A stretch of DNA of 52,396 nt from Candidatus Aminicenantota bacterium (lineage in GTDB: Bacteria; Acidobacteriota; Aminicenantia; Aminicenantales; Aminicenantaceae), in the NCBI GenBank assembly GCA_011773465.1, contig WVXO01000018.1:9976-62371 (forward strand), written 5' to 3'. A program made the position numbers and the translations under genes. How positions within the stretch are numbered: position 1 is the first letter of the stretch; the number at the start of each line of letters is the position of its first letter. Below, one piece after another: positions 37,347-48,637 of this stretch. The notes below the pieces were generated by a model, which was not told the origin of the DNA, searched no databases, and saw nothing but the letters and a program-made list of their open reading frames with translations.

Positions 37347-38069
37347 CTAACGCCTATCTTCTGCATATTTTTCTAACAATCTAATTAATAAACTTGCCAA
37401 GGCTAAGTACTCAATAGCTCTGTTTCGGTCATCAAGTAAAACATTATCATGAGCTTTTCTATTTCTTATCCCAACTATTCCTTTGTATAAAAACATTAGA
37501 CCTCTTTGCTCATCTTTCTCTTCGTCAGAACTTAAATCATTAAATTTAATGATAGGGTCTTTATTATCGCATCCAAATGCTTGATTCATTAAGCTATCTC
37601 CATCATAAACTTTCCCAGTGAGACTTTTAACCTTTGCCTTTACTTCTTTAATCACTTTTTTAAAAGCTTCTTCTACGGCTTGAGCATAATGTTTATCTTC
37701 ATATAGTTTTTGGCTCACCTCTTTTATTTTGGGGCTAAAATCGTAATGTTCTAATGCAGTCAACCTGCTTGCATCTACCTCTCTAGTTTCTTTGAATCGT
37801 TCAGCCTCTGATAAAAATCCTTCTAGAAGAGCCTTCCTCTCGTTTAAATCTTTTACATATAATTGCTGCTGATGTCGTGGGTTGCTTGCCATTTTTCTAG
37901 GGCCAGACATTTTAAATAAATTGACATATGGTTCATCAAATAATTTCTTAATTAATTTCAGGGTTGCAGCTTCCCAAATTCTAAATTCTGGGCCATAAGC
38001 AACTCGACTCTTTAAGTTTTCAATTTCATCAATCTGTTCTTTTAATATCTTTATTTGTTTTATTTCCAT
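37347..38069 (-). CDS. TIGR02391 (Ymh) family protein with HEPN-type RNase motif
   Basis: 240 aa. The C-terminal half (residues about 105-235) matches the TIGR02391/Ymh domain of the HEPN clan: SPKIKEVSQKLYEDKHYAQA, VEEAFKKVIKEVKAKVKSLT, GLMFLYKGIVGIRNRKAHDN. RNRKAH at about residues 202-207 is the R-x4-H signature of HEPN ribonucleases. The N-terminal half is a charged helical domain. HEPN proteins often act in toxin or anti-phage systems by cutting RNA. No partner antitoxin (MNT-type) is adjacent. A kinase-family promoter and zinc-ribbon remnant lie 100-200 bases upstream and point toward it, so it may use that promoter. Confidence 0.75.
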   Translation of the reverse strand: MEIKQIKILKEQIDEIENLKSRVAYGPEFRIWEAATLKLIKKLFDEPYVNLFKMSGPRKMASNPRHQQQLYVKDLNERKALLEGFLSEAERFKETREVDASRLTALEHYDFSPKIKEVSQKLYEDKHYAQAVEEAFKKVIKEVKAKVKSLTGKVYDGDSLMNQAFGCDNKDPIIKFNDLSSDEEKDEQRGLMFLYKGIVGIRNRKAHDNVLLDDRNRAIEYLALASLLIRLLEKYAEDRR

Positions 38070-38174
38070 TTTTTACCTCCTTGCTTGGTTTTATTATACG
38101 CAAACCATAGCTTAAGAATTATCGCAAGCTGTCCAAATTTAGTTGAAACGAAACAGCTAGTAGAAGTAGGTCAT

Positions 38175-38269
38175 TTAGTCTAGGTCGAAATTACACTTGG
38201 GACATTTCATTCCCATTATTCCCCTAGATTACTCGGCAAAAGAATATCAATTTATGAAAGAAGTGTCAA
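38175..38269 (-). pseudogene. Kinase-family promoter and first 11 codons (remnant)
   Basis: On the minus strand TTGACA (38269-38264), 17 bases, TATTCT (38246-38241) is followed by a leader and ATG 38210 reading MKCPKCNFDLD and then a stop. The start is the CxxC zinc-ribbon start of the large kinases at 41759 and 48637, and the promoter has the same build as theirs. Only this 5' piece of a kinase gene survives. Confidence 0.6.
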
Positions 38270-38681: not shown

Positions 38682-41600
38682 TTACTGGCCTTTCAGCCCA
38701 GACAGCCTCTTCCTCGCATCCTCAACCTCAGGAATACCAGGGTCAGCGTTTTTCCAGAGGTCAAGGAATTTTGAGTAATGTTCAATGGCTTTGGTATTGT
38801 CGCCTTGCTGTTCGTAGATCTTACCGAGCATGTAGAAGGATTTGGCATAGATGTCGCCATGAAAGAGTCTTCCATTTGTTAGATTAAGTATCTTTTCGTA
38901 CTCCTCCCGAGCTTTCTTCAGGTCTCCAGCCCTAAAATAAGTTACAGCTAAAGCTTCTATAAATAATCCATGTCTATGGTGATGAGAATGTTGAAAGGGT
39001 AACAAATTTATCGCTTTATCAAGATATTCTATCGCTTTGGTAAAATTCTCCTTTTCTAGCTCAATCCTGCCAACCAGATGATAGTAAAGTCTTATCAGAT
39101 TCTTGTTCATTCCTTCTTCAATTAATTCTTTAAGCTCATATGCAGCCTTCTGTGCTTCCTCTATTGATTTTTTATTAATATAGGCAAGTCCCCTAAAAAA
39201 TAAAGCAATTCTTCCCTGGATAGGATCATTCATCAATGTATCAAATTCCCTCAAAGCTTCTTCAGGATTTCCTGAGGCTAAAAGTCCATAACCTAAGAAT
39301 TTATGGAATCTATTTTCTGCTGACCTATCATCATTTCTTTTTGCTGTTACAATTCCTTGCTGTATAAGCTTTTTTAATTTTTTAAATCTTCCTTTATACA
39401 AATATAGACATCTAAACCTACCTATTCCATATCCATAATCTGCTGGGCCTTCTCTCTCCTTAAACTTCTGGTACTTCTCTTCAGCTTTAATCAAGTCCCC
39501 TTTACAAAGGTAAATATCACCCTTTATCCGGAAAAAACGACTTTCAGTTGGATCAATAGACAAAGCTTTATCTGCCTCAACAAGGGCAAGATCATATTTC
39601 CCTTGAGTAAGGTAATTTATAGCTAAATCGCCATGGATCAATGCATGATCAGGGAAATTATTTAGATAATTCTTAAGTACTTCTTCGGCCTTTTCATAAA
39701 GCCCCTTAGCTCTGTAGGCATCAGCTTGATTTGCATAGGGAGCATAGATTTCAGGCGTAATTTGGATACACGTTTCAAATCGCTCTATGGCCTTATCCCA
39801 CTCTTCTATGTTAAAATACAATATCCCTAAGTTTTCATTCCCTATCAAATCATCTGGGTACAGCTCCAATAATTTATTATATGCCTCGAATGCTTTAGCA
39901 TGTGTTTTCACTGATTTTCCATAGAAATCTCCCTGGATTTGAAAGCGTTCTCTTTCCGACACTCGATCTATCAATTCAATGGCCTTTTGAAGCCATTTCT
40001 TCCCCTCAGATTCATACCTCATATTCCAATAAGCCTTTGCCATGCTTCTGTAAGCGGTAGCAAACTGGGGGTCAATGGCTACTGCTCTTTCATAAAATTG
40101 GACAGCTTTGCGATTATCTCCCATATGCTGATATTTTTGCCCCTCACTATAATATTTATACGCTTCAGGAGAGTTGGTTGTGATCTTCCCAATTTCTCTA
40201 TCTATATCACTGGCTATCTCTTCTATAGAAAGCCTAAAATTCGCCTTGATTCTTCTTGTTAGTTCGTCCACTTTGGGAAAAACCTCTTCTTCGCCTCTTG
40301 CCTCCACCCTATCCGAGCCGATGAGTTCTCCTGTTTTGGCTTCTTGAAGAACAACATCAATCCTAAATGTCTCGCCCATCTTGGCATACTTTCCCAGCAA
40401 TAGATGGTTGACTCTTCCCTTTTCCGCTATCTTCTTCAAAACAGCTGCAGAATAAGTTTTTGTATCGAGCTGATTTAGCTCACTTAAGATTTCAAATAAT
40501 TTGTCCCCGCTTAAAATCCTCAAGTACTTGGATTGTGATAGGTCAGTGATTAACAAATCAGAGAGCATTTTTCTCAAATGATCCAGATTTTCATCTCCAG
40601 TGTTGTTTTCGAAGTAAATAACAGCAAGAGATGGTTTACCAGATGAGTCTGACGGGACTACTTCTTTTTGGGGAAGAAGCTGCCAGATAACAATCGCAAT
40701 AATGGCAAGAGAGACAACCACAGAAGGAATGAAGATCTTCTTTCGGATAAGTATGGCAATGAAAGTCTCTCGCCTGGGGAGAATCTTTGTACCAAGGGGA
40801 AGGCCATCCTCAATATTGTGTAGATCATTGAGAAGCGCCTCCGCCGTCTGATACCTCCTCTCTCTCTTCTTCTCCATGCATATCAGGATCAAACGACTGA
40901 GATTTTCTGAAATCTCTGGATTGAGCTTCTTTGGATTTGAAGGCAGCTTTGTTTTATGTTTTATAGCTACGCTAAAAGCCGTATCCCCCTTAAAAGGAAC
41001 ACTCCCTGTTACCATCTCATACAGAATGACTCCTAAGGAATAGATATCCGATCTCTGGTCTGCTTCCTCTCCCTCTGCCTGCTCAGGCGAGAGGTAATCA
41101 GGAGTACCGATCATGACTCCTGCTTTTGTGATTCCAGGAGCCTCGAACGAGCGGGCTATCCCAAAATCCATGATCTTCGCGTTGCCATCCTTGTCAATCA
41201 TGATGTTCTGAGGCTTCAAATCCCGGTGCACGACGCCCAGCCTATGGGCCTCAACCAAGCCTTCACATACCTCCTTGGCTATAAGTATTGCTTCATTGTC
41301 AGCTAGTTTTCCTTTTCTTCTTACCAAGCTCTTCAGATCCTCACCCAGAACATACTCCATAATTATGTAAGGAGTCTCTTCCTCTTTTGCAAGGTGGTAC
41401 ATCCGGCACACGTTTTTGTGAGAGATCTGACGGGCGAATTTTAACTCATTCCGGAAGCGGTCAACTATGCTTTCATCAGAAGCGATTTCAGGTTTTAAGA
41501 GTTTTACGGCAACTTCCTCGTTAATCTCTTTATCATGAGCCCTGTAAACTCGGCCCATGCCTCCTTTTCCAAGCTCCTCGATGATCTCGTATCTTTCTGC

Positions 41601-41759
41601 GAAAATTTTTCCTCTTGTTAATGCTTCTCTTTGTGTTTCAAGAGTTTTGGTAGGAGAGACTTTGATATCCTCGGCTGAGATAAGTTGTGTGCCACACTCT
41701 TTACAGAACTTGGAATCAGATGGGCTATCAAAATGACAATTAGGACACTTAGTACCCAT
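38682..41759 (-). CDS. Membrane Ser/Thr protein kinase with zinc ribbon, TolB-like domain and TPR repeats
   Basis: 1025 aa. Residues 1-25 form a zinc ribbon (CPNC and CKEC). Residues about 55-320 are a Hanks-type kinase: GKGGMG, VAVKLL, VVHRDLKPQNIMI, MDFGIARS, PDYLSPEQAEGE and YSLGVILYEMVTG. All catalytic residues are present. One transmembrane helix (about residues 340-362) leads to an extracytoplasmic region with a TolB/FlgO-like segment (LAVIYFENNTGDENLDHLRK) and about 11 TPR-like repeats (AYKYYSEGQKYQHMGDNRKA, FYERAVAIDPQFATAYRSMA and so on). It should sense envelope signals by TPR-protein contacts and phosphorylate cytoplasmic targets. Promoter TTGACT-N17-TATTCT (41816-41788) lies upstream. 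Confidence 0.88.
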   Translation of the reverse strand: MGTKCPNCHFDSPSDSKFCKECGTQLISAEDIKVSPTKTLETQREALTRGKIFAERYEIIEELGKGGMGRVYRAHDKEINEEVAVKLLKPEIASDESIVDRFRNELKFARQISHKNVCRMYHLAKEEETPYIIMEYVLGEDLKSLVRRKGKLADNEAILIAKEVCEGLVEAHRLGVVHRDLKPQNIMIDKDGNAKIMDFGIARSFEAPGITKAGVMIGTPDYLSPEQAEGEEADQRSDIYSLGVILYEMVTGSVPFKGDTAFSVAIKHKTKLPSNPKKLNPEISENLSRLILICMEKKRERRYQTAEALLNDLHNIEDGLPLGTKILPRRETFIAILIRKKIFIPSVVVSLAIIAIVIWQLLPQKEVVPSDSSGKPSLAVIYFENNTGDENLDHLRKMLSDLLITDLSQSKYLRILSGDKLFEILSELNQLDTKTYSAAVLKKIAEKGRVNHLLLGKYAKMGETFRIDVVLQEAKTGELIGSDRVEARGEEEVFPKVDELTRRIKANFRLSIEEIASDIDREIGKITTNSPEAYKYYSEGQKYQHMGDNRKAVQFYERAVAIDPQFATAYRSMAKAYWNMRYESEGKKWLQKAIELIDRVSERERFQIQGDFYGKSVKTHAKAFEAYNKLLELYPDDLIGNENLGILYFNIEEWDKAIERFETCIQITPEIYAPYANQADAYRAKGLYEKAEEVLKNYLNNFPDHALIHGDLAINYLTQGKYDLALVEADKALSIDPTESRFFRIKGDIYLCKGDLIKAEEKYQKFKEREGPADYGYGIGRFRCLYLYKGRFKKLKKLIQQGIVTAKRNDDRSAENRFHKFLGYGLLASGNPEEALREFDTLMNDPIQGRIALFFRGLAYINKKSIEEAQKAAYELKELIEEGMNKNLIRLYYHLVGRIELEKENFTKAIEYLDKAINLLPFQHSHHHRHGLFIEALAVTYFRAGDLKKAREEYEKILNLTNGRLFHGDIYAKSFYMLGKIYEQQGDNTKAIEHYSKFLDLWKNADPGIPEVEDARKRLSGLKGQ

Positions 41760-41787
41760 ACTTTTCCCGCTTGTTTAGTTCGGAGAA

Positions 41788-41816
41788 AGAATACCAATTT
41801 GGGGAAAAGGAGTCAA
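41788..41816 (-). promoter_or_regulatory. Promoter of the TPR kinase
   Basis: Minus strand TTGACT (41816-41811), 17 bases, TATTCT (41793-41788); the ATG is about 30 bases downstream. Same design as the promoters at 38264 and 48694. The bases between are pyrimidine-rich in all three. Confidence 0.6.
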
Positions 41817-41865
41817 ATTTATTCACACCATATCCCCTCGGATTTCATGGATGAATCTATTCAAT

Positions 41866-41895
41866 TTGACACTAGGTCTCACTTATTGTTATTTT
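41866..41895 (+). promoter_or_regulatory. Promoter of kinase remnant and TonB receptor
   Basis: TTGACA (41866-41871), 18 bases, TATTTT (41890-41895). It is divergent from the TPR kinase promoter and drives the zinc-ribbon remnant at 41926 and the TonB receptor at 42124. Confidence 0.5.
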
Positions 41896-41925
41896 ATTAC
41901 CTTACATTCAAGGGGTATAATAGGA

Positions 41926-42123
41926 ATGAAGTGTCTTAAATGTCATTCTTATAATCACGACGATACTATTTATTGTGGTAAATGTGCCACACCTCTTAAT
42001 CATATAGCAAAAACCCCTGTCGCTGCCACCAGAACTCTTCAAAAACCTGTATCAGAACTCCAGATTGAAAGCATACATGCAACAAGATTTAAAATCACTG
42101 AAATTTTAGGAAAAGGAGGAAAA
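41926..42123 (+). pseudogene. Kinase N-terminal remnant (zinc ribbon up to glycine loop)
   Basis: From ATG 41926 the frame reads MKCLKCHSYNHDDTIYCGKC, then ATPLN, a short linker with TRTLQKPV, and FKITEILGKGGK. This follows the kinase at 48637 (MKCPKCHFANPDDTLYCGKC, KTLETPV, YKIIEELGRGGMG) and stops exactly in the glycine-rich ATP loop. The frame then runs straight into the TonB receptor gene. The glycine loop DNA GGAAAAGGAGGAAAA provides the Shine-Dalgarno sequence of the receptor. A translated 66-residue zinc-ribbon leader is possible, as is a fusion, but the receptor has its own signal peptide. Confidence 0.65.
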
Positions 42124-45100
42124 ATGAAAAAAATCATAAAATTCTTTTTCATCATGCTTTTAGCTTTTGTTCTAACATCTATAACTTTCGCCCAAGGAAG
42201 ACAGACAGGTTCAATCCACGGCACAGTCGTAGACGAGCAAAGAAATCCCCTCCCAGGAGCTACCGTAACCCTTGCTGGCCCAGCAGTTATGGGAACCAAA
42301 ACCTATGTATCCAGCGAGACGGGAAAATTCCGTTTTCCTTCCCTTTTACCTGGCTCAGAATATGAAGTAAGAGTCCAAATGCCTGGGTTTAACATCACAA
42401 CCAGACGAGGCTTAATAGTCAGCGTTGGAAAAACAACTGAAATAATCATAACACTAGTGATGACAACTATAGAAAAAGAAGTAACCGTAACGGCTGTATC
42501 GCCAGTAGTAGATATCGAGACTTCAAAAGTCAGTGTCCACTACGACAGTGAATTCCTTGCAAGTATCCCTATGAGTCGAGACCTGTATGGTATCCAGAAC
42601 TCCATCCCTGGTGCCATTTCTGAAGGAGTTGATTACCGCCGGACCTCCTCTATACTCGGAGGGACGGTCCGGAGTCAGCTCTACCAGCTGGACGGTGTTC
42701 CGATGAATGATCCTGCCACGTTCTATCCAATGACCAACATCAACGTCGATGTCTACGAAGAGATTGAATTCGGGATCGGGTCGCTTCCGGCCGAAGTGGG
42801 ACAAGCTGACTCAGTGGTTGTTAACATCGTCACTAAGGCCGGTGGAAACAGGTTTTCAGGAAGCGCTGCCGCTTATTATACAGGCGATGCTTTAGTCGAT
42901 AATTTACTGTCTGCCGAAGATAACAAAGCGATTGGTGTCAATCCTCCCGAATCATTCCGGGATTACAAAGACGGCTCCTTGAGCTTTGGCGGTCCATTCA
43001 TCCAAGACAAGCTCTGGTTCTTCCTCAACGCCCGTCGCCTTGCCTGGGAGCAAGCCAATTTTGAGACTCATGATGTTCGTTTGGCAAATATCAACTTGAG
43101 GGAATGGACGTTCTCTCCGGCAGAATTGCAGCATTATGATTTCGAACATTATGAGTGGTTGGGCTTTGGCAAGCTGACCTTCCAGCTCACGGATAACATC
43201 CGGTATATGGGCATGTACCATTGGAACAATATCTATGAACCTGTTTACACAAACAGAACTGGCAATAATTACTCTTTTGCGCTCACGGTCGTCTGGGATC
43301 ACGAGAACACCCACACCACAACTCATCAGCTCAACTGGGTCCTGAACCAGGATACTTTCGTTGATGTTCGCGGGACATATGTCTACCGCCATTTTCCCCT
43401 CCTTCTGCGGCCAGAATTCAAAGACAATTATATGGTCTTTGACCGGAGACACCGAGTTTTCTGGGGCAACTCGTATTTCGGGGACGATTATATCCGTAAA
43501 AAGGCCCTTGCTTCGTTTTCGGTGACCCACTTTGCAGATGACCTTCTGGGAGCAAGCCATGAAATAAAGTTAGGCGGTGAATTCGAACACACTATTTACG
43601 GTTTCGACAGGTATAAGGACGGCAATCCCTACTACACGTACTGGAGAGATTATAACGCTCAAAACAAATATCACTACTCAAGTTCACGTCGCGAAGGCCG
43701 GCTCAGAGTGCGTCCTTTTGGTCCAAGAGGCACAGTGTGGAAATATGACAACACCCGCCGTTGGTCTGCCTATATCCAGGACAACATAGTCAAAGGGAAG
43801 CTGGCGGTCAACGTTGGTCTTCGTTTTGATTACGGCTACCAGTACGAACCCAAGCAATCACGGCCAGATATGATCGACATGTATGATGTCGGACCCGAAT
43901 TCCTGAACCCCGCTCTGACTGATCCTGCTATCGGTAATCTCCCTCCCACGATACTCATGCACGCCCTAAACGACCAGTATCACAACGATCCCGACATAGA
44001 GTTCAATCAAACCTCTGCTTTTGATGCGATCACTACTCCTTGGAAAAAAATTGTTGAGTTCACAACGTTCTCGCCGAGAATTGGAATCGTTTACGACCTC
44101 TTCGGTGACGGAAAGACGGCTATCAAGGCCTCTTTTAGCCGCTACTATGAGCCCGTCTGGTCCGCCAAGTACAATGCCGCCAATATTTTGAGCGGCATGG
44201 CTATGAACTGGTACTGGTACGACCTGAACGGCAACGAATACATGGATCTGCCCAGGCCCGGCGGTGCTTATGGATCACCTGTTCAGAATCAGTACCTTGA
44301 CGATGGTGCCGCAAATGATCCCGACGGAGATGGACAGGCTGGCGATCAGTACAGGTTAACAAGTTATGATGTTCAAAATCCCGATTGGAAATTCTATATA
44401 GACGACTTGAAGGCTCCCTATATGCATGAATTCATCCTGGGCGTCGACCACGAGCTGGTTAGGGACTTTAGACTGGGGCTCCAATTCATCTACAAGATTA
44501 ACAAGAATATCGTCGAGGACGTGGACATGAACAACGGCTATGATCCTAACCACATCGATGAAGCAACAGGACAGCCCACCTGGCTGCCGTATGCTTTTAC
44601 TGACCCTGGCTGGGATGGAGAATGGGGGACAGCAGATGACCAGCAAATGACCCTATACGGACTGGCAGATTACGCTCCTACAAGAGCTTGGCACGGTACG
44701 AATCCACCAGAGGCCAAGAGAACATACACGGCTGTAGTGCTGACTTTCGACAAGAGGATGTCAAACCGGTGGCAGCTGCAGGGCTCGATCCTGTATTCTG
44801 CCTTCAGAGGCAATGCCGATCCTGGATACAACGCAACAGAAGGCGAGTCAGGAATGTTTGACAATCCTAACGTGATGATAAACTCTTACGGCCCGCTATC
44901 GTTTGACCGCCCGTTCCAGCTCAAGCTTATGGGATCTGTCATACTGCCCTTCGACATAATCTTCACCGGCTATCTCCAGGGCCTTTCAGGATCACCCTGG
45001 AGAAGAGGAATTAGGCGCGTCTACTTCCCCTCAAGTATTGCAACTCAAGATACCTTCGTCGGAGTCTGGCCCGAAAAGAACGGATCCAGAAGAGATCCTC

Positions 45101-45345
45101 CCTACACAATGTTGGATATAAGGATTGAGAAATCCTTTAATATTGGCGATTTCGGCAAGCTGAGTCTCTATCTCGATGCCTTCAACCTCGGGGGAAGAAG
45201 CGGCTACATCATCAATGGGAACCCCGGTCCTGATATCTGGCCCTACAGAGATCCGCCGGAAATCGAACTCGACTCAACCTACGGACTCGTGAACAGCTGC
45301 TATGGTATCCGTTCTTTCCGTTTGGGTATAAGGTATACTTTTTAG
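42124..45345 (+). CDS. TonB-dependent receptor, Oar-like, with carboxypeptidase regulatory-like domain
   Basis: Chosen start ATG 42124 (1073 aa) rather than the longer open frame from 41851, because AAAAGGAGG lies 5 bases before it and a clean signal peptide follows (MKKIIKFFFIMLLAFVLTSI, cut after FAQ). Residues about 26-115 form a CarboxypepD_reg-like beta domain (GSIHGTVVDEQRNPLPGATV, GKFRFPSLLPGSEYEVRV). Next comes the plug (YQLDGVPMNDPATFYPMTNI, VVNIVTKAGGN), then a large beta-barrel ending IRSFRLGIRYTF, the C-terminal Phe needed for outer-membrane insertion. A calcium-like loop DDGAANDPDGDGQAGD lies near residue 730. It probably imports oligosaccharides or peptides, or serves in adhesion. 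No canonical SusD partner is adjacent. Confidence 0.9.
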   Translation: MKKIIKFFFIMLLAFVLTSITFAQGRQTGSIHGTVVDEQRNPLPGATVTLAGPAVMGTKTYVSSETGKFRFPSLLPGSEYEVRVQMPGFNITTRRGLIVSVGKTTEIIITLVMTTIEKEVTVTAVSPVVDIETSKVSVHYDSEFLASIPMSRDLYGIQNSIPGAISEGVDYRRTSSILGGTVRSQLYQLDGVPMNDPATFYPMTNINVDVYEEIEFGIGSLPAEVGQADSVVVNIVTKAGGNRFSGSAAAYYTGDALVDNLLSAEDNKAIGVNPPESFRDYKDGSLSFGGPFIQDKLWFFLNARRLAWEQANFETHDVRLANINLREWTFSPAELQHYDFEHYEWLGFGKLTFQLTDNIRYMGMYHWNNIYEPVYTNRTGNNYSFALTVVWDHENTHTTTHQLNWVLNQDTFVDVRGTYVYRHFPLLLRPEFKDNYMVFDRRHRVFWGNSYFGDDYIRKKALASFSVTHFADDLLGASHEIKLGGEFEHTIYGFDRYKDGNPYYTYWRDYNAQNKYHYSSSRREGRLRVRPFGPRGTVWKYDNTRRWSAYIQDNIVKGKLAVNVGLRFDYGYQYEPKQSRPDMIDMYDVGPEFLNPALTDPAIGNLPPTILMHALNDQYHNDPDIEFNQTSAFDAITTPWKKIVEFTTFSPRIGIVYDLFGDGKTAIKASFSRYYEPVWSAKYNAANILSGMAMNWYWYDLNGNEYMDLPRPGGAYGSPVQNQYLDDGAANDPDGDGQAGDQYRLTSYDVQNPDWKFYIDDLKAPYMHEFILGVDHELVRDFRLGLQFIYKINKNIVEDVDMNNGYDPNHIDEATGQPTWLPYAFTDPGWDGEWGTADDQQMTLYGLADYAPTRAWHGTNPPEAKRTYTAVVLTFDKRMSNRWQLQGSILYSAFRGNADPGYNATEGESGMFDNPNVMINSYGPLSFDRPFQLKLMGSVILPFDIIFTGYLQGLSGSPWRRGIRRVYFPSSIATQDTFVGVWPEKNGSRRDPPYTMLDIRIEKSFNIGDFGKLSLYLDAFNLGGRSGYIINGNPGPDIWPYRDPPEIELDSTYGLVNSCYGIRSFRLGIRYTF

Positions 45346-45442: not shown

Positions 45443-45560
45443 TTACTTGCTCTTCAACACAGCCAGCTTCTTCCTCGCATCCTCAACCTCTGGAAAGACG
45501 CTGATTTCAGTATTGCTGAGGTTGAGGAATTTCTCGTTTTTCGCTATAGCTATGCCTATG
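45443..45560 (-). pseudogene. Kinase C-terminal tail remnant
   Basis: Minus-strand reading gives AIAKNEKFLNLSNTEISVFP and then EVEDARKKLAVLKSK before a stop. This closely follows the end of the TPR kinase (HYSKFLDLWKNADPGIPEVE, DARKRLSGLKGQ). It lies just past the stop of the kinase at 45593-48637, which has a different C-terminus. It shows that a TPR-type kinase once ended here and was replaced or recombined. Confidence 0.6.
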
Positions 45561-45592
45561 TTGTTCTGCTGTTTATAGTTTTTTCTGAGTTT

Positions 45593-48500
45593 TCATTTCA
45601 CAGGCCCCAAGTATCTATCCAGCCAACCAAGACTTATTTTTATCACTTCCTTCCTACTCCTGTGATTAAGTACGTAATGATCTGAATCGAGTATCTCAAG
45701 ACGTTTATGTTCTTCTGGAGTTCCCAGTGCTCGAAAGAGCGGCTTTACAGTCTTCTCTAATGGAAATGTAGTGTCATGCTGGCCGTGTATCATTAACATG
45801 GGGATCTTTACCCTGTGGGCACAACTATATTGATCACGATTCCTAATTGTACCAGCGATGAGGATTCCTGTTTTGATTCTTTTTTCCAATGCACAGGGGA
45901 ATGCTCCCATATGCGCTCCCCAGCTAACACCACAGTATGCCAATTTCTCACTGTCGATATCGTCTCTGCTCTCCAGGTAGTCAATAGATCGCATAATATC
46001 CTTCATATGTTTGACAGTCATATCTTTATTGTGCATCATTTCTCCAAAAAGTTGTTCACGATCTGGTATTTGAGCACCACCTCTCTCATAAGTCCCTTTA
46101 AGAATCGGATACAGGAGAGCCCTGCCATCCTTGACAAAATAATCAGTTTTCCGGAGAAGCAAATTTCCGTTTTGACTGGATGCGACGTAAGCAGCATTTA
46201 TACCTGGCCAATAAATAATTACCTGATATGGTGGTAAAGTATTTTTCGGAAGAAAGAGGTAGGCCAACATCCGCTCATTGTTGTAAGCCGCATCAAAGGT
46301 AATTTTCTCCTTTACCCAGTATTTTGGTGTATCATCCCTCAATTCAACCTTAGAGTTCAGAGGAGTCTTAGGATAAGAAATAAAGCTGAGCCAGGCGTTA
46401 AAGATGTCATCTGAAAAAGGTTTTTCTTTGCTCCAATCCAAGGGCGTAATACGATTAAGCGGACGTTCCAGATCTTCTGATGTTGACTCCTCTGTCAGTA
46501 GCTTCATGCAGCGGAAACCATTACCAGAGTCCCGATCAAAAGGAGAACGCACATCTGGCTCTGTAAAAAAATAGGTAGGACCTTTCCATGCGCCCCCAAC
46601 AGTGAACCGCATTTCTCCTGTGGAATTGGAGCACCATTCTCTTGCATTACCTGCTGTATCATATGTTCCATAAGTGCCGAGGCCTCCTTGGTAACTACCT
46701 ACCGGCGCCAGTCCTGAAGTCCCAAAATTACTTCCTGGGATAACATTTCCACTGTATCTTATAGAACTTACTTTTTCCCAATGGTAAATGGTAGGAAGTC
46801 TCTTGCCTATATACTCTGCATACGCTGCTGCCTCGTACCAGCTCACTCCAGTTACCGGAAATTCTTCCTGCCCCTCAGGGTAGTTGCCAAATTCCCAGGT
46901 TGCTGGGCCTGGCCGACCAGTGCTGTCACGGAAGAGAGCCATAGCTTCCTCCCAGGAAAGAATCTTCCCATTTTTTCGGAATTGATATTTCCAAAACCCA
47001 GGCTTCTCATACCCACCGCTTTCTACAAACTCTTTAAATTCCCTGTTTGTCACTTCAAACTTATCTATAAGGAAATCCCGTATCTGGACAAATTTTAAAC
47101 TTTCATAAGCATAAAGGGAAATACGAACCCTACGCTTCATTCTATCAACAGGAACTCTTACCATCCTTAGTGGGATACTTCCTTTCTTACTTAAAGTTCT
47201 GTTGACAGATATAGTATGCGCAACATCAAGTGTTTCATACCCTTCCTGTTGGATTTTTATCCGCGGAGTCCATCCAGACCAATATTTGGGAATTCTCATA
47301 AGTTCCTTTGAAGTCTTCCCAAAATACACCCATCCGCTCTCCTGGGCTCCAAGATCTTTCATAAAAACATCTGCGCCCAAAGGTTCTATTCTCATTGGAC
47401 GTTCGATAGAAATTGCTGGCCATATCTTGGCCAAAAGCGGATCTTCAGGGATGACTTTTTCAACCTCCCTGGCAAGTTTAAACGCTTCAAGGTAATTCTC
47501 CTCTTCAGCAAGCTGTATGATTTCAGGGATGATCTCATTCCTAGCCCATCGTACTTTGGTATTCCTCTTAAAACTCCATACAGCAAAAATACAGAGAGCA
47601 AGCACAACTAATACTGCAGGTATAGCCACATACGTCCTTCGCATTAGTCTTATTAATGACTTTAAGTCCTTTATTCCGACTTCTTCAGCTTTCAGGCTCG
47701 GCTTGTATTGCCTGAGGTCCTTCAACACCCCAGCCATACTCTGATACCGGGACTCCGGCTTTTTCTTCAAAGCACGATTGATGATCTTCGCAAACTCATC
47801 AGGAATTCCAGGCTTACTATCCTTGATTGGTTTAGGTTCCTCGTGCACTATGGAATAAAGAATCGAAGCCTCGGTCTCTCCTTCAAATGGCGTCTGCCCG
47901 CAAATCATTTCATACAAAACCACCCCAAATGACCAGATGTCTGTGCGGTGATCGACTGTTTTTCCTCTGGCCTGTTCGGGCGACATATAGGCAACGGTTC
48001 CGATGGTCGTCCCTTCTCGGGTAACCTGTGCTCCACCTCTGATCTTTGCCAACCCAAAATCCATGACCTTTGCCTGGCCTTTCCTGTCTACCATGATGTT
48101 GGCAATCTTGATATCCCTGTGGATAATACCTTTGTTGTGTGCCTCTTCCAAACCCTCGGCAACCTGTATGGCGATGTCTAATACTTCATCGACAGCCAGA
48201 GGCTTTTGCTCTATTCTTTTCTTCAAGCTCTGTCCTTCTACATACGCCATAGAGATATAGGCTTTGCCCTCGGCTTCATCAACTTCGTAAACTGTACAGA
48301 TGTTCGGATGATCCAGAGCTGCGGCAGCTTGTGCCTCTCGTACGAATCGCTCCTTTGCTTCAGGATCGCTGACTAACTCCTGAGGCAGAAATTTGAGGGC
48401 CACAGGACGTTTGAGCTTTGTGTCTTCCGATTTATATACTATCCCCATGCCTCCTCTTCCCAGCTCTTCGATAATTTTGTATTTTCCAGCAAAAGTTGCC

Positions 48501-48637
48501 CCTTTCTCCATTTCCATAACAGGAGTTTCTAGGGTTTTTGTGCGAGAAACAGATACTCCTTCTTTCAGAGGAGTGGCACACTTCCCGCAATAGAGAGTAT
48601 CATCAGGGTTTGCAAAATGACACTTAGGGCATTTCAT
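45593..48637 (-). CDS. Ser/Thr kinase + PEGA-like + formylglycine/sulfatase-modifying (FGE) domain + alpha/beta hydrolase
   Basis: 1014 aa in four parts. Residues 1-25 are a zinc ribbon (CPKC, CGKC). Residues about 48-330 are a Hanks kinase with GRGGMGIVYK, VALKFL, IIHRDIKIANIMV, MDFGLAKIR, MSPEQARGK and WSFGVVLYEM. A transmembrane helix lies at about 345-365. Residues about 430-500 are PEGA-like beta strands. Residues about 520-720 are an FGE/SUMF1-type domain (FLIDKFEVTNREFKEFVESG, FPVTGVSWYEAAAYAEYIGK, GGAWKGPTYFFTEPDVRSPF, GFRCMK). Residues about 790-1010 are a serine hydrolase: CGVSWGAHMG nucleophile elbow, IHGQHDTTFP Asp, DSDHYVLNHR His. Kinase signalling and an extracytoplasmic hydrolase are thus in one chain. 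Targets unknown. Confidence 0.88.
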   Translation of the reverse strand: MKCPKCHFANPDDTLYCGKCATPLKEGVSVSRTKTLETPVMEMEKGATFAGKYKIIEELGRGGMGIVYKSEDTKLKRPVALKFLPQELVSDPEAKERFVREAQAAAALDHPNICTVYEVDEAEGKAYISMAYVEGQSLKKRIEQKPLAVDEVLDIAIQVAEGLEEAHNKGIIHRDIKIANIMVDRKGQAKVMDFGLAKIRGGAQVTREGTTIGTVAYMSPEQARGKTVDHRTDIWSFGVVLYEMICGQTPFEGETEASILYSIVHEEPKPIKDSKPGIPDEFAKIINRALKKKPESRYQSMAGVLKDLRQYKPSLKAEEVGIKDLKSLIRLMRRTYVAIPAVLVVLALCIFAVWSFKRNTKVRWARNEIIPEIIQLAEEENYLEAFKLAREVEKVIPEDPLLAKIWPAISIERPMRIEPLGADVFMKDLGAQESGWVYFGKTSKELMRIPKYWSGWTPRIKIQQEGYETLDVAHTISVNRTLSKKGSIPLRMVRVPVDRMKRRVRISLYAYESLKFVQIRDFLIDKFEVTNREFKEFVESGGYEKPGFWKYQFRKNGKILSWEEAMALFRDSTGRPGPATWEFGNYPEGQEEFPVTGVSWYEAAAYAEYIGKRLPTIYHWEKVSSIRYSGNVIPGSNFGTSGLAPVGSYQGGLGTYGTYDTAGNAREWCSNSTGEMRFTVGGAWKGPTYFFTEPDVRSPFDRDSGNGFRCMKLLTEESTSEDLERPLNRITPLDWSKEKPFSDDIFNAWLSFISYPKTPLNSKVELRDDTPKYWVKEKITFDAAYNNERMLAYLFLPKNTLPPYQVIIYWPGINAAYVASSQNGNLLLRKTDYFVKDGRALLYPILKGTYERGGAQIPDREQLFGEMMHNKDMTVKHMKDIMRSIDYLESRDDIDSEKLAYCGVSWGAHMGAFPCALEKRIKTGILIAGTIRNRDQYSCAHRVKIPMLMIHGQHDTTFPLEKTVKPLFRALGTPEEHKRLEILDSDHYVLNHRSRKEVIKISLGWLDRYLGPVK

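Follow-up and report, generated by a model that had tools for sequence, protein, structure and literature searches.

Kinase-family promoters before unrelated genes in Candidatus Aminicenantota suggest repeated promoter donation by decaying paralogs

Experimental evolution has established that a gene can capture a promoter through a deletion, as in the wrinkly spreaders of Pseudomonas fluorescens (PMC4395868) and in the E. coli Cit+ case cited there. Deletion-born gene fusions and promoter recruitment have also been surveyed, and the parts of these surveys available to us describe how distant gene pieces are fused and local transcription is remodelled (PMC12803068, PMC11101190); the main text of PMC12803068 makes no mention of microhomology, Shine or paralog. 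Most known cases of promoter capture come from laboratory evolution, and in the open-access literature we found neither a report of one paralogous family as a repeated promoter donor nor a study of the zinc-ribbon kinase family of Aminicenantes. Here, one expanded gene family seems to act as a standing donor.

The locus lies in a window of 52,396 nucleotides (the whole stretch of DNA analyzed) on contig C41 of a 2.59-Mb metagenome assembly with 74 contigs (G000). The comparison set consisted of 40 relatives (41 genomes with its own), mostly labelled Candidatus Aminicenantes or Acidobacteria MAGs. From these sequences, our analysis suggests that decaying kinase copies repeatedly pass their promoter to other genes.

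The receptor gene and its kinase-type leader

A single frame is open from 41926 to 45345 on the plus strand (1139 codons). Its first 66 codons (41926-42123) encode MKCLKCHSYNHDDTIYCGKCATPLNHIAKTPVAATRTLQKPVSELQIESIHATRFKITEILGKGGK and are followed by ATG 42124, from which an outer-membrane receptor (CarboxypepD_reg, SusC/Oar-like) runs to 45345. This receptor begins with a hydrophobic signal peptide and carries a CarboxypepD_reg domain (PF13620, 3.4e-17). No barrel domain was matched in it by Pfam, and its homolog G016:3668785 matches OMP_b-brl_4 and, weakly and below its cutoff, Plug. Many genomes have receptor orthologs (60-75% in the N-terminal part), which start, with their signal peptide, at the equivalent of 42124. 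Consequently, 42124 is the real receptor start, as the first-pass annotation had placed it, and the 66 codons are foreign. That annotation had also described a kinase-type leader, which holds; the listed frame opens at 41851, but the kinase-type start is 41926. Frames such as 41851-45345 would be given a false N-terminus in routine annotation.

The 66-residue leader matches kinase N-termini at 22 further places in the same genome (23 with its own), with identity of up to 56%. Most of these places are kinase genes, the intact ones with frames of about 800-1050 aa, and the best match (E 8.6e-17) is the intact kinase 45593-48637. The leader comprises an N-terminal CxxC...CxxC zinc ribbon, a linker, and the start of the kinase N-lobe, and its four Cys are invariant in the kinase-family alignment (A1). 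Since no kinase domain follows the glycine loop (no Pkinase match was found by Pfam anywhere in 41926-45345), the leader is a relic rather than a family member. Of the glycine loop G-K-G-G-M-G, only G-K-G-G is left at the junction; where the earlier reading had the leader run to a GKGGK loop, the final K is a junction residue outside the kinase motif.

The genes on both sides of the fused frame are kinases of the zinc-ribbon family. Upstream and divergent is an intact zinc-ribbon/kinase/TPR gene (38682-41759, minus strand; PF00069, 4.1e-61). Downstream and convergent is the close match to the leader, 45593-48637 (minus strand), whose C-terminus is SUMF1-like and hydrolase-like. Adjoining the latter, a relic of a kinase C-terminus, the TPR end, occupies 45446-45589 (minus strand; 46% over 48 aa to the other kinase, E 6e-5), and its position behind a kinase with a different tail suggests that kinase tails are swapped as well. 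When the kinase remainder was sought beside the receptor, this minus-strand relic was all that was found, with no plus-strand tail; insertion of the receptor into a kinase is therefore not favored over replacement or deletion.

The promoter before the leader also has the kinase-family design, as had been claimed from the letters alone. It consists of TTGACA (41866-41871), an 18-nt spacer, and TATTTT (41890-41895), and in a consensus scan it is the only sigma-70-like site on the plus strand of 41760-42200. We built a two-box matrix on the 33 best of 39 kinase upstream regions of the genus (consensus tTTGACt, 13-nt gap, TTgtTATtcTtTT.cca). Among all positions on both strands of the window, the site at 41865 (plus strand) ranks second with 29.8 bits, between 38270 (minus, 29.9 bits) and 41817 (minus, 27.2 bits); the next site scores 17.7 bits, and the best score in 2000 shuffles of the intergenic stretch was 14.9 bits. 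The 27.2-bit site serves the divergent kinase, whose kinase-type promoter is placed at 41816-41788 (minus strand) by matrix and consensus scan. The receptor promoter stands 61 nt before the leader ATG; for most kinases, this distance is 60-67 nt.

In the orthologs, the receptor is preceded by a different leader, and the kinase leader and promoter are absent. The best kinase-promoter score in the 500 nt upstream of each of 27 receptor relatives was 12.2 bits. The ortholog leader carries AAAGGAGGTGA about 100 nt before the ATG, an element that is absent from the window copy. Across the kinase-receptor junction, a search of the 40 relatives returned only the window's own copy, and no synteny of the window receptor shared with relatives was found. 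The pattern is that of promoter capture: a receptor preceded by a donor promoter and 5′ codons, with orthologs that are without the donor sequence.

Two side observations concern the upstream regions of these homologs. The ortholog leaders (L025-L035) have a perfect AAAGGAGGTGA at a long distance from the start codon; in G003, G004, G016, and G033, an inverted repeat, GGAGTG...CACTCC, also stands before the real Shine-Dalgarno sequence. The leader is possibly an RNA element that was lost in the window copy. The distant receptor homolog G016:3668785, from another genus, has a weaker, 17.5-bit kinase-like site exactly 60 nt before its ATG (L109:2729-2788, G016:3668728-3668787); a kinase gene of the same orientation lies upstream of this site.

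Kinase promoters before other genes

The window itself holds a second kinase-promoter capture, at 37347-38269 (minus strand). A kinase-type promoter without a kinase (TTGACA-17-TATTCT, 38241-38269), the best-scoring site in the window at 29.9 bits, is followed by a short kinase relic of 13 codons and a stop, MGMKCPKCNFDLD (38175-38216), and then by a Hypoth_Ymh gene (37347-38069; PF09509, 3.1e-27).

To cover the family more widely, truncated kinase copies were collected by a leader-profile (A1) search of 25 family genomes and read one by one, and a strict promoter pattern, TTGACWN{12,14}TTRNTATNYTNTTNCC, was used independently of the leader profile. The pattern has 88 sites in the 41 genomes, compared with 0 for the reversed-pattern control. 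About one quarter of the 88 sites precede a non-kinase gene, often with a kinase relic of 5-89 codons. Pattern sites and truncated copies together yielded 26 non-kinase genes that stand behind a kinase-type promoter and keep 0-89 kinase codons. They include the receptor, Hypoth_Ymh, PhoX, a metallo-beta-lactamase-fold gene, serine hydrolases, GH95, caspase-like and TPR proteins, and small membrane proteins. A widened family search added six genomes as a fresh sample, in which 9 of the 20 sites read belong to intact kinase starts and about 8 stand before other genes. In two of these cases (G043:C174, G050:C22), an in-frame leader is followed by a signal-peptide gene with an internal Shine-Dalgarno sequence. 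In all, about 30 unrelated genes carry the kinase promoter, often with a kinase stub, and captures occur on single-contig genomes too (G016, CP070825.1; G041). The first-pass annotation had proposed kinase-type control as a general way for this family to place genes, and these counts bear it out; at the level of sequence, there is good support both for kinase-promoter capture and for its generality.

Kinase codons (M..KCPKC or variants) can still be recognized at the kinase start position in more than half of the gene groups. A strongly hydrophobic N-terminus was scored in 18 of 23 captured gene groups versus 53 of the 157 genes (34%) in the regions examined, by a crude hydrophobicity threshold (P 1.6e-5), and most captured genes look exported or membrane-bound.

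Retention of the promoter can be followed on phoX. PhoX orthologs that are 84% identical occur in G000, G003, G008, and G016, which belong to three genera, and each is preceded by the promoter (25.7-33.0 bits); it is missing before the more distant orthologs of G014, G023, and G005. In G000, promoter and gene are still separated by a decayed leader, MKWPKRNTE, and in G003, G008, and G016, the phoX ATG is at the position where the kinase ATG would be. The promoter outlasts the relic, which suggests that the promoter is what is selected. It is also kept across species before a small membrane protein (G002, G006) and an ABM-like protein (G001, G003).

Some individual loci deserve description. At L087 (G003:C90:9503-17600, minus strand), three kinase-promoter units form a head-to-tail array: a leader with a serine hydrolase, an intact kinase, and a leader with a metallo-beta-lactamase-fold gene. 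At L227 (G042:C308:2831-2865, minus strand), the pattern match (TTTTTCC) is followed after only about 1 nt by the ATG of a secreted protein, which may give an mRNA with almost no leader. At L230, L231, and L168 (G043:C174, G009:C167), tandem secreted proteins of 174 aa stand behind kinase promoters; their leaders are decayed (ESPQC, ESPHN variants), with one still in frame with its gene.

Origin of the junction and competing explanations

The junction, GGAAAAGGAGGAAAA (42109-42123, plus strand), consists of glycine-loop codons that can also be read as a Shine-Dalgarno sequence: GGA AAA GGA GGA AAA ATG, compared with GGA AAA GGA GGC ATG GGC or close variants in the kinases. The 16S tail is predicted to pair more strongly at 42124 (-11.6 kcal/mol) than at 41926 (-7.8). 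The idea that loop DNA was reused as a ribosome binding site stands as far as the near-ideal Shine-Dalgarno sequence goes, but the origin of that sequence is ambiguous. Receptor orthologs have their own purine-rich Shine-Dalgarno sequence at the same spot (e.g., AAAAAAAGGAGGACAAATG in G016), and the kinase and receptor parents share about 10 bases there, so both the crossover point and the owner of the Shine-Dalgarno sequence are ambiguous. Use of the glycine loop as the receptor's ribosome site is plausible and is not attributable for the window gene. A clearer case is found on G003 contig C90, where the kinase leader ends in GGAAAAGGAGGCATATAATG and a TAATG both stops the leader and starts the metallo-beta-lactamase-fold gene, which has a signal peptide; the GGCAT at this junction is kinase sequence. 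No orthologs of that gene were found in the relatives at E 1e-40. In most other captured genes, the loop is not used as a ribosome site.

Breakpoints nonetheless cluster at the loop. With positions placed by eye, 8 of the 18 kinase breakpoints beyond codon 30 fall at codons 61-67, the glycine loop, where a uniform distribution would give about 1 (P 4e-6), and held-out genomes contributed two more. These loop breakpoints include plain internal deletions (G000:C63, G023:C225) and breaks without a gene start after them. Since this clustering includes breaks with no gene behind them, we take the loop to be a probable mutational hotspot, and its use as a ribosome site is probably a consequence of this in a few cases.

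From sequence homology, we consider promoter capture from a decayed kinase paralog the likely source of the receptor's promoter and leader. One of about 20 zinc-ribbon Ser/Thr kinase genes would have broken at its glycine-loop DNA (GGAAAAGGAGG) and been joined, via short purine-rich homology, to the Shine-Dalgarno region of the receptor gene. The receptor would have lost its own leader and would now depend on the kinase-family promoter at 41866 for its transcription. Translation would begin mainly at 42124, via a purine-rich stretch made of former kinase codons and the receptor ribosome site, with the 66 leader codons acting as a 5′ UTR or a short translated stretch. More broadly, kinase arrays would turn over repeatedly, and genes left behind a kinase promoter would keep it. 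What the genomes provide directly is the homology of leader and promoter, the absence of both from receptor orthologs, the recurrence of the arrangement, and the conservation of the phoX promoter; the activity of the promoter, the choice of start, and a regulation shared between kinases and captured genes are what we infer. The same distinction applies to the original proposal that a recombination had swapped the body of a kinase gene for a receptor: the body is gone, promoter and start are kept, and an unrelated receptor follows, while recombination is the presumed means.

The window junction rests on one metagenome assembly, so a misjoin has to be weighed, namely that the receptor belongs between a ROK-family gene and a sulfatase gene and was wrongly attached to a truncated kinase in C41. 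In G003 and G004, the receptor does lie between these genes, and in the 74-contig MAG studied here, the two genes lie at the ends of contigs C12 and C66, at the very place where the syntenic receptor would be expected (L197, L192): the sequence of C12 breaks off in a native receptor leader, and that of C66 sets in no more than about 3 nt from the expected receptor stop. This gap may reflect an unassembled syntenic copy, a collapsed duplicate, or a misjoin. However, the stretch shared at the junction is shorter than 20 nt, and the kinase relic is truncated wherever the receptor belongs. The window receptor is also more diverged than the syntenic ortholog should be. For the ROK and sulfatase genes, G000, G003, and G004 are about equally far apart (87-92%), whereas the window receptor is 79% identical to that of G003 and 75% to that of G004, which are 83% identical to each other, and in the receptor tree it falls outside G003+G004 on a longer branch. 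Low identity and tree position favor, short of proof, a diverged relocated copy, and we regard a misjoin as unlikely. Junctions of the same kind on the single-contig genomes G016 (CP070825.1) and G041 make the general result independent of the window junction.

The remaining readings differ in what they make of the 66 codons. A conserved zinc-ribbon-receptor fusion protein would agree with the single open frame of 1139 codons from 41926, but the search of related genomes that the first-pass annotation had called for returned this fusion in 0 of 40 relatives, and all receptor orthologs begin at the 42124 equivalent; this candidate is contradicted, and we consider it extremely improbable and reject it. 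A functional leader, kept to regulate or extend the receptor as a zinc-ribbon leader peptide or a cytoplasmic N-terminal domain, is a rather improbable reading that deserves more discussion. The four Cys are intact, and the frame is open and continuous with the receptor. Relative to 36 kinase leaders of the genus, non-synonymous divergence is ordinary in the zinc ribbon (z -0.4) and in excess in the linker (z 2.5) and in the segment before the glycine loop (z +6.6). The zinc-ribbon codons (41926-41997) are thus as conserved as in working kinases next to a decayed kinase segment, a pattern that a plain untranslated relic does not predict. Either the zinc ribbon has stayed under selection since an old truncation, or the donor kinase was divergent, which could give the same pattern in this single case of few codons. 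Against a functional leader, it would bury the signal peptide behind 66 residues, the receptor orthologs are without the extension, and the Cys are gone from other old relics (MKWPKRNTE, MNLESPQC, MGIRYPRVN). The remaining truncated leaders have no excess non-synonymous divergence in any segment against the same 36 leaders and are therefore recent. A constrained zinc ribbon in other relics was considered and dropped, as similar ones are recent and old ones have lost Cys. We likewise see little chance that the promoter simply defines a regulon of one sigma factor or activator, with kinases as its most numerous members, exported genes having acquired it independently and the receptor's adjacency being coincidental. 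Such a regulon would fit the loci that have the promoter without a recognizable kinase relic (L147, L171, L176, L178, L227) and the PhoX ATG sitting at the kinase ATG position in three genera. However, independent evolution would not give the kinase codons kept by the majority of gene groups, nor the 66 that the receptor retains.

Relation to known systems

Promoter capture also points to a testable route by which a bacterial regulon may grow, through the decay of paralogs. Unrelated, mostly exported genes appear to have been left behind the promoter of broken kinases, and in at least one case, phoX, the arrangement is conserved over several genera. A tentative extension, which we regard as possible, is that the shared kinase promoter is regulated as a unit, that array turnover recruits exported enzymes and receptors to it, and that glycine-loop DNA is a recurrent breakpoint through its resemblance to a Shine-Dalgarno sequence. 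Coding DNA that resembles a ribosome site, such as GxGG loops coded GGAAAAGGAGG, may then steer where genes break and rejoin.

The two parents of the fused frame are themselves familiar types. The zinc-ribbon Ser/Thr kinases of Aminicenantes, with a Pkinase domain and TPR or other C-termini, have a homologous leader and promoter; their kinase domain is gone here. With CarboxypepD_reg/SusC-Oar-like receptors, the window gene shares the domain, the signal peptide, and close orthologs, but their own AAAGGAGGTGA leader is absent. The likeness to the wrinkly-spreader and Cit+ captures is that a gene comes to lie behind the promoter of an upstream gene, sometimes in frame with its first codons (PMC4395868). 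Those cases arose under laboratory selection and from unrelated single promoters, whereas here one paralogous family appears to have been the donor many times in nature, and, unlike in those cases, one junction coincides with a coding motif that can be read as a Shine-Dalgarno sequence. The surveys of deletion-born fusions, in the parts available to us, focus on new genes and proto-genes (PMC12803068, PMC11101190); in the Aminicenantes, it is established exported genes that appear to gain a family-specific promoter.
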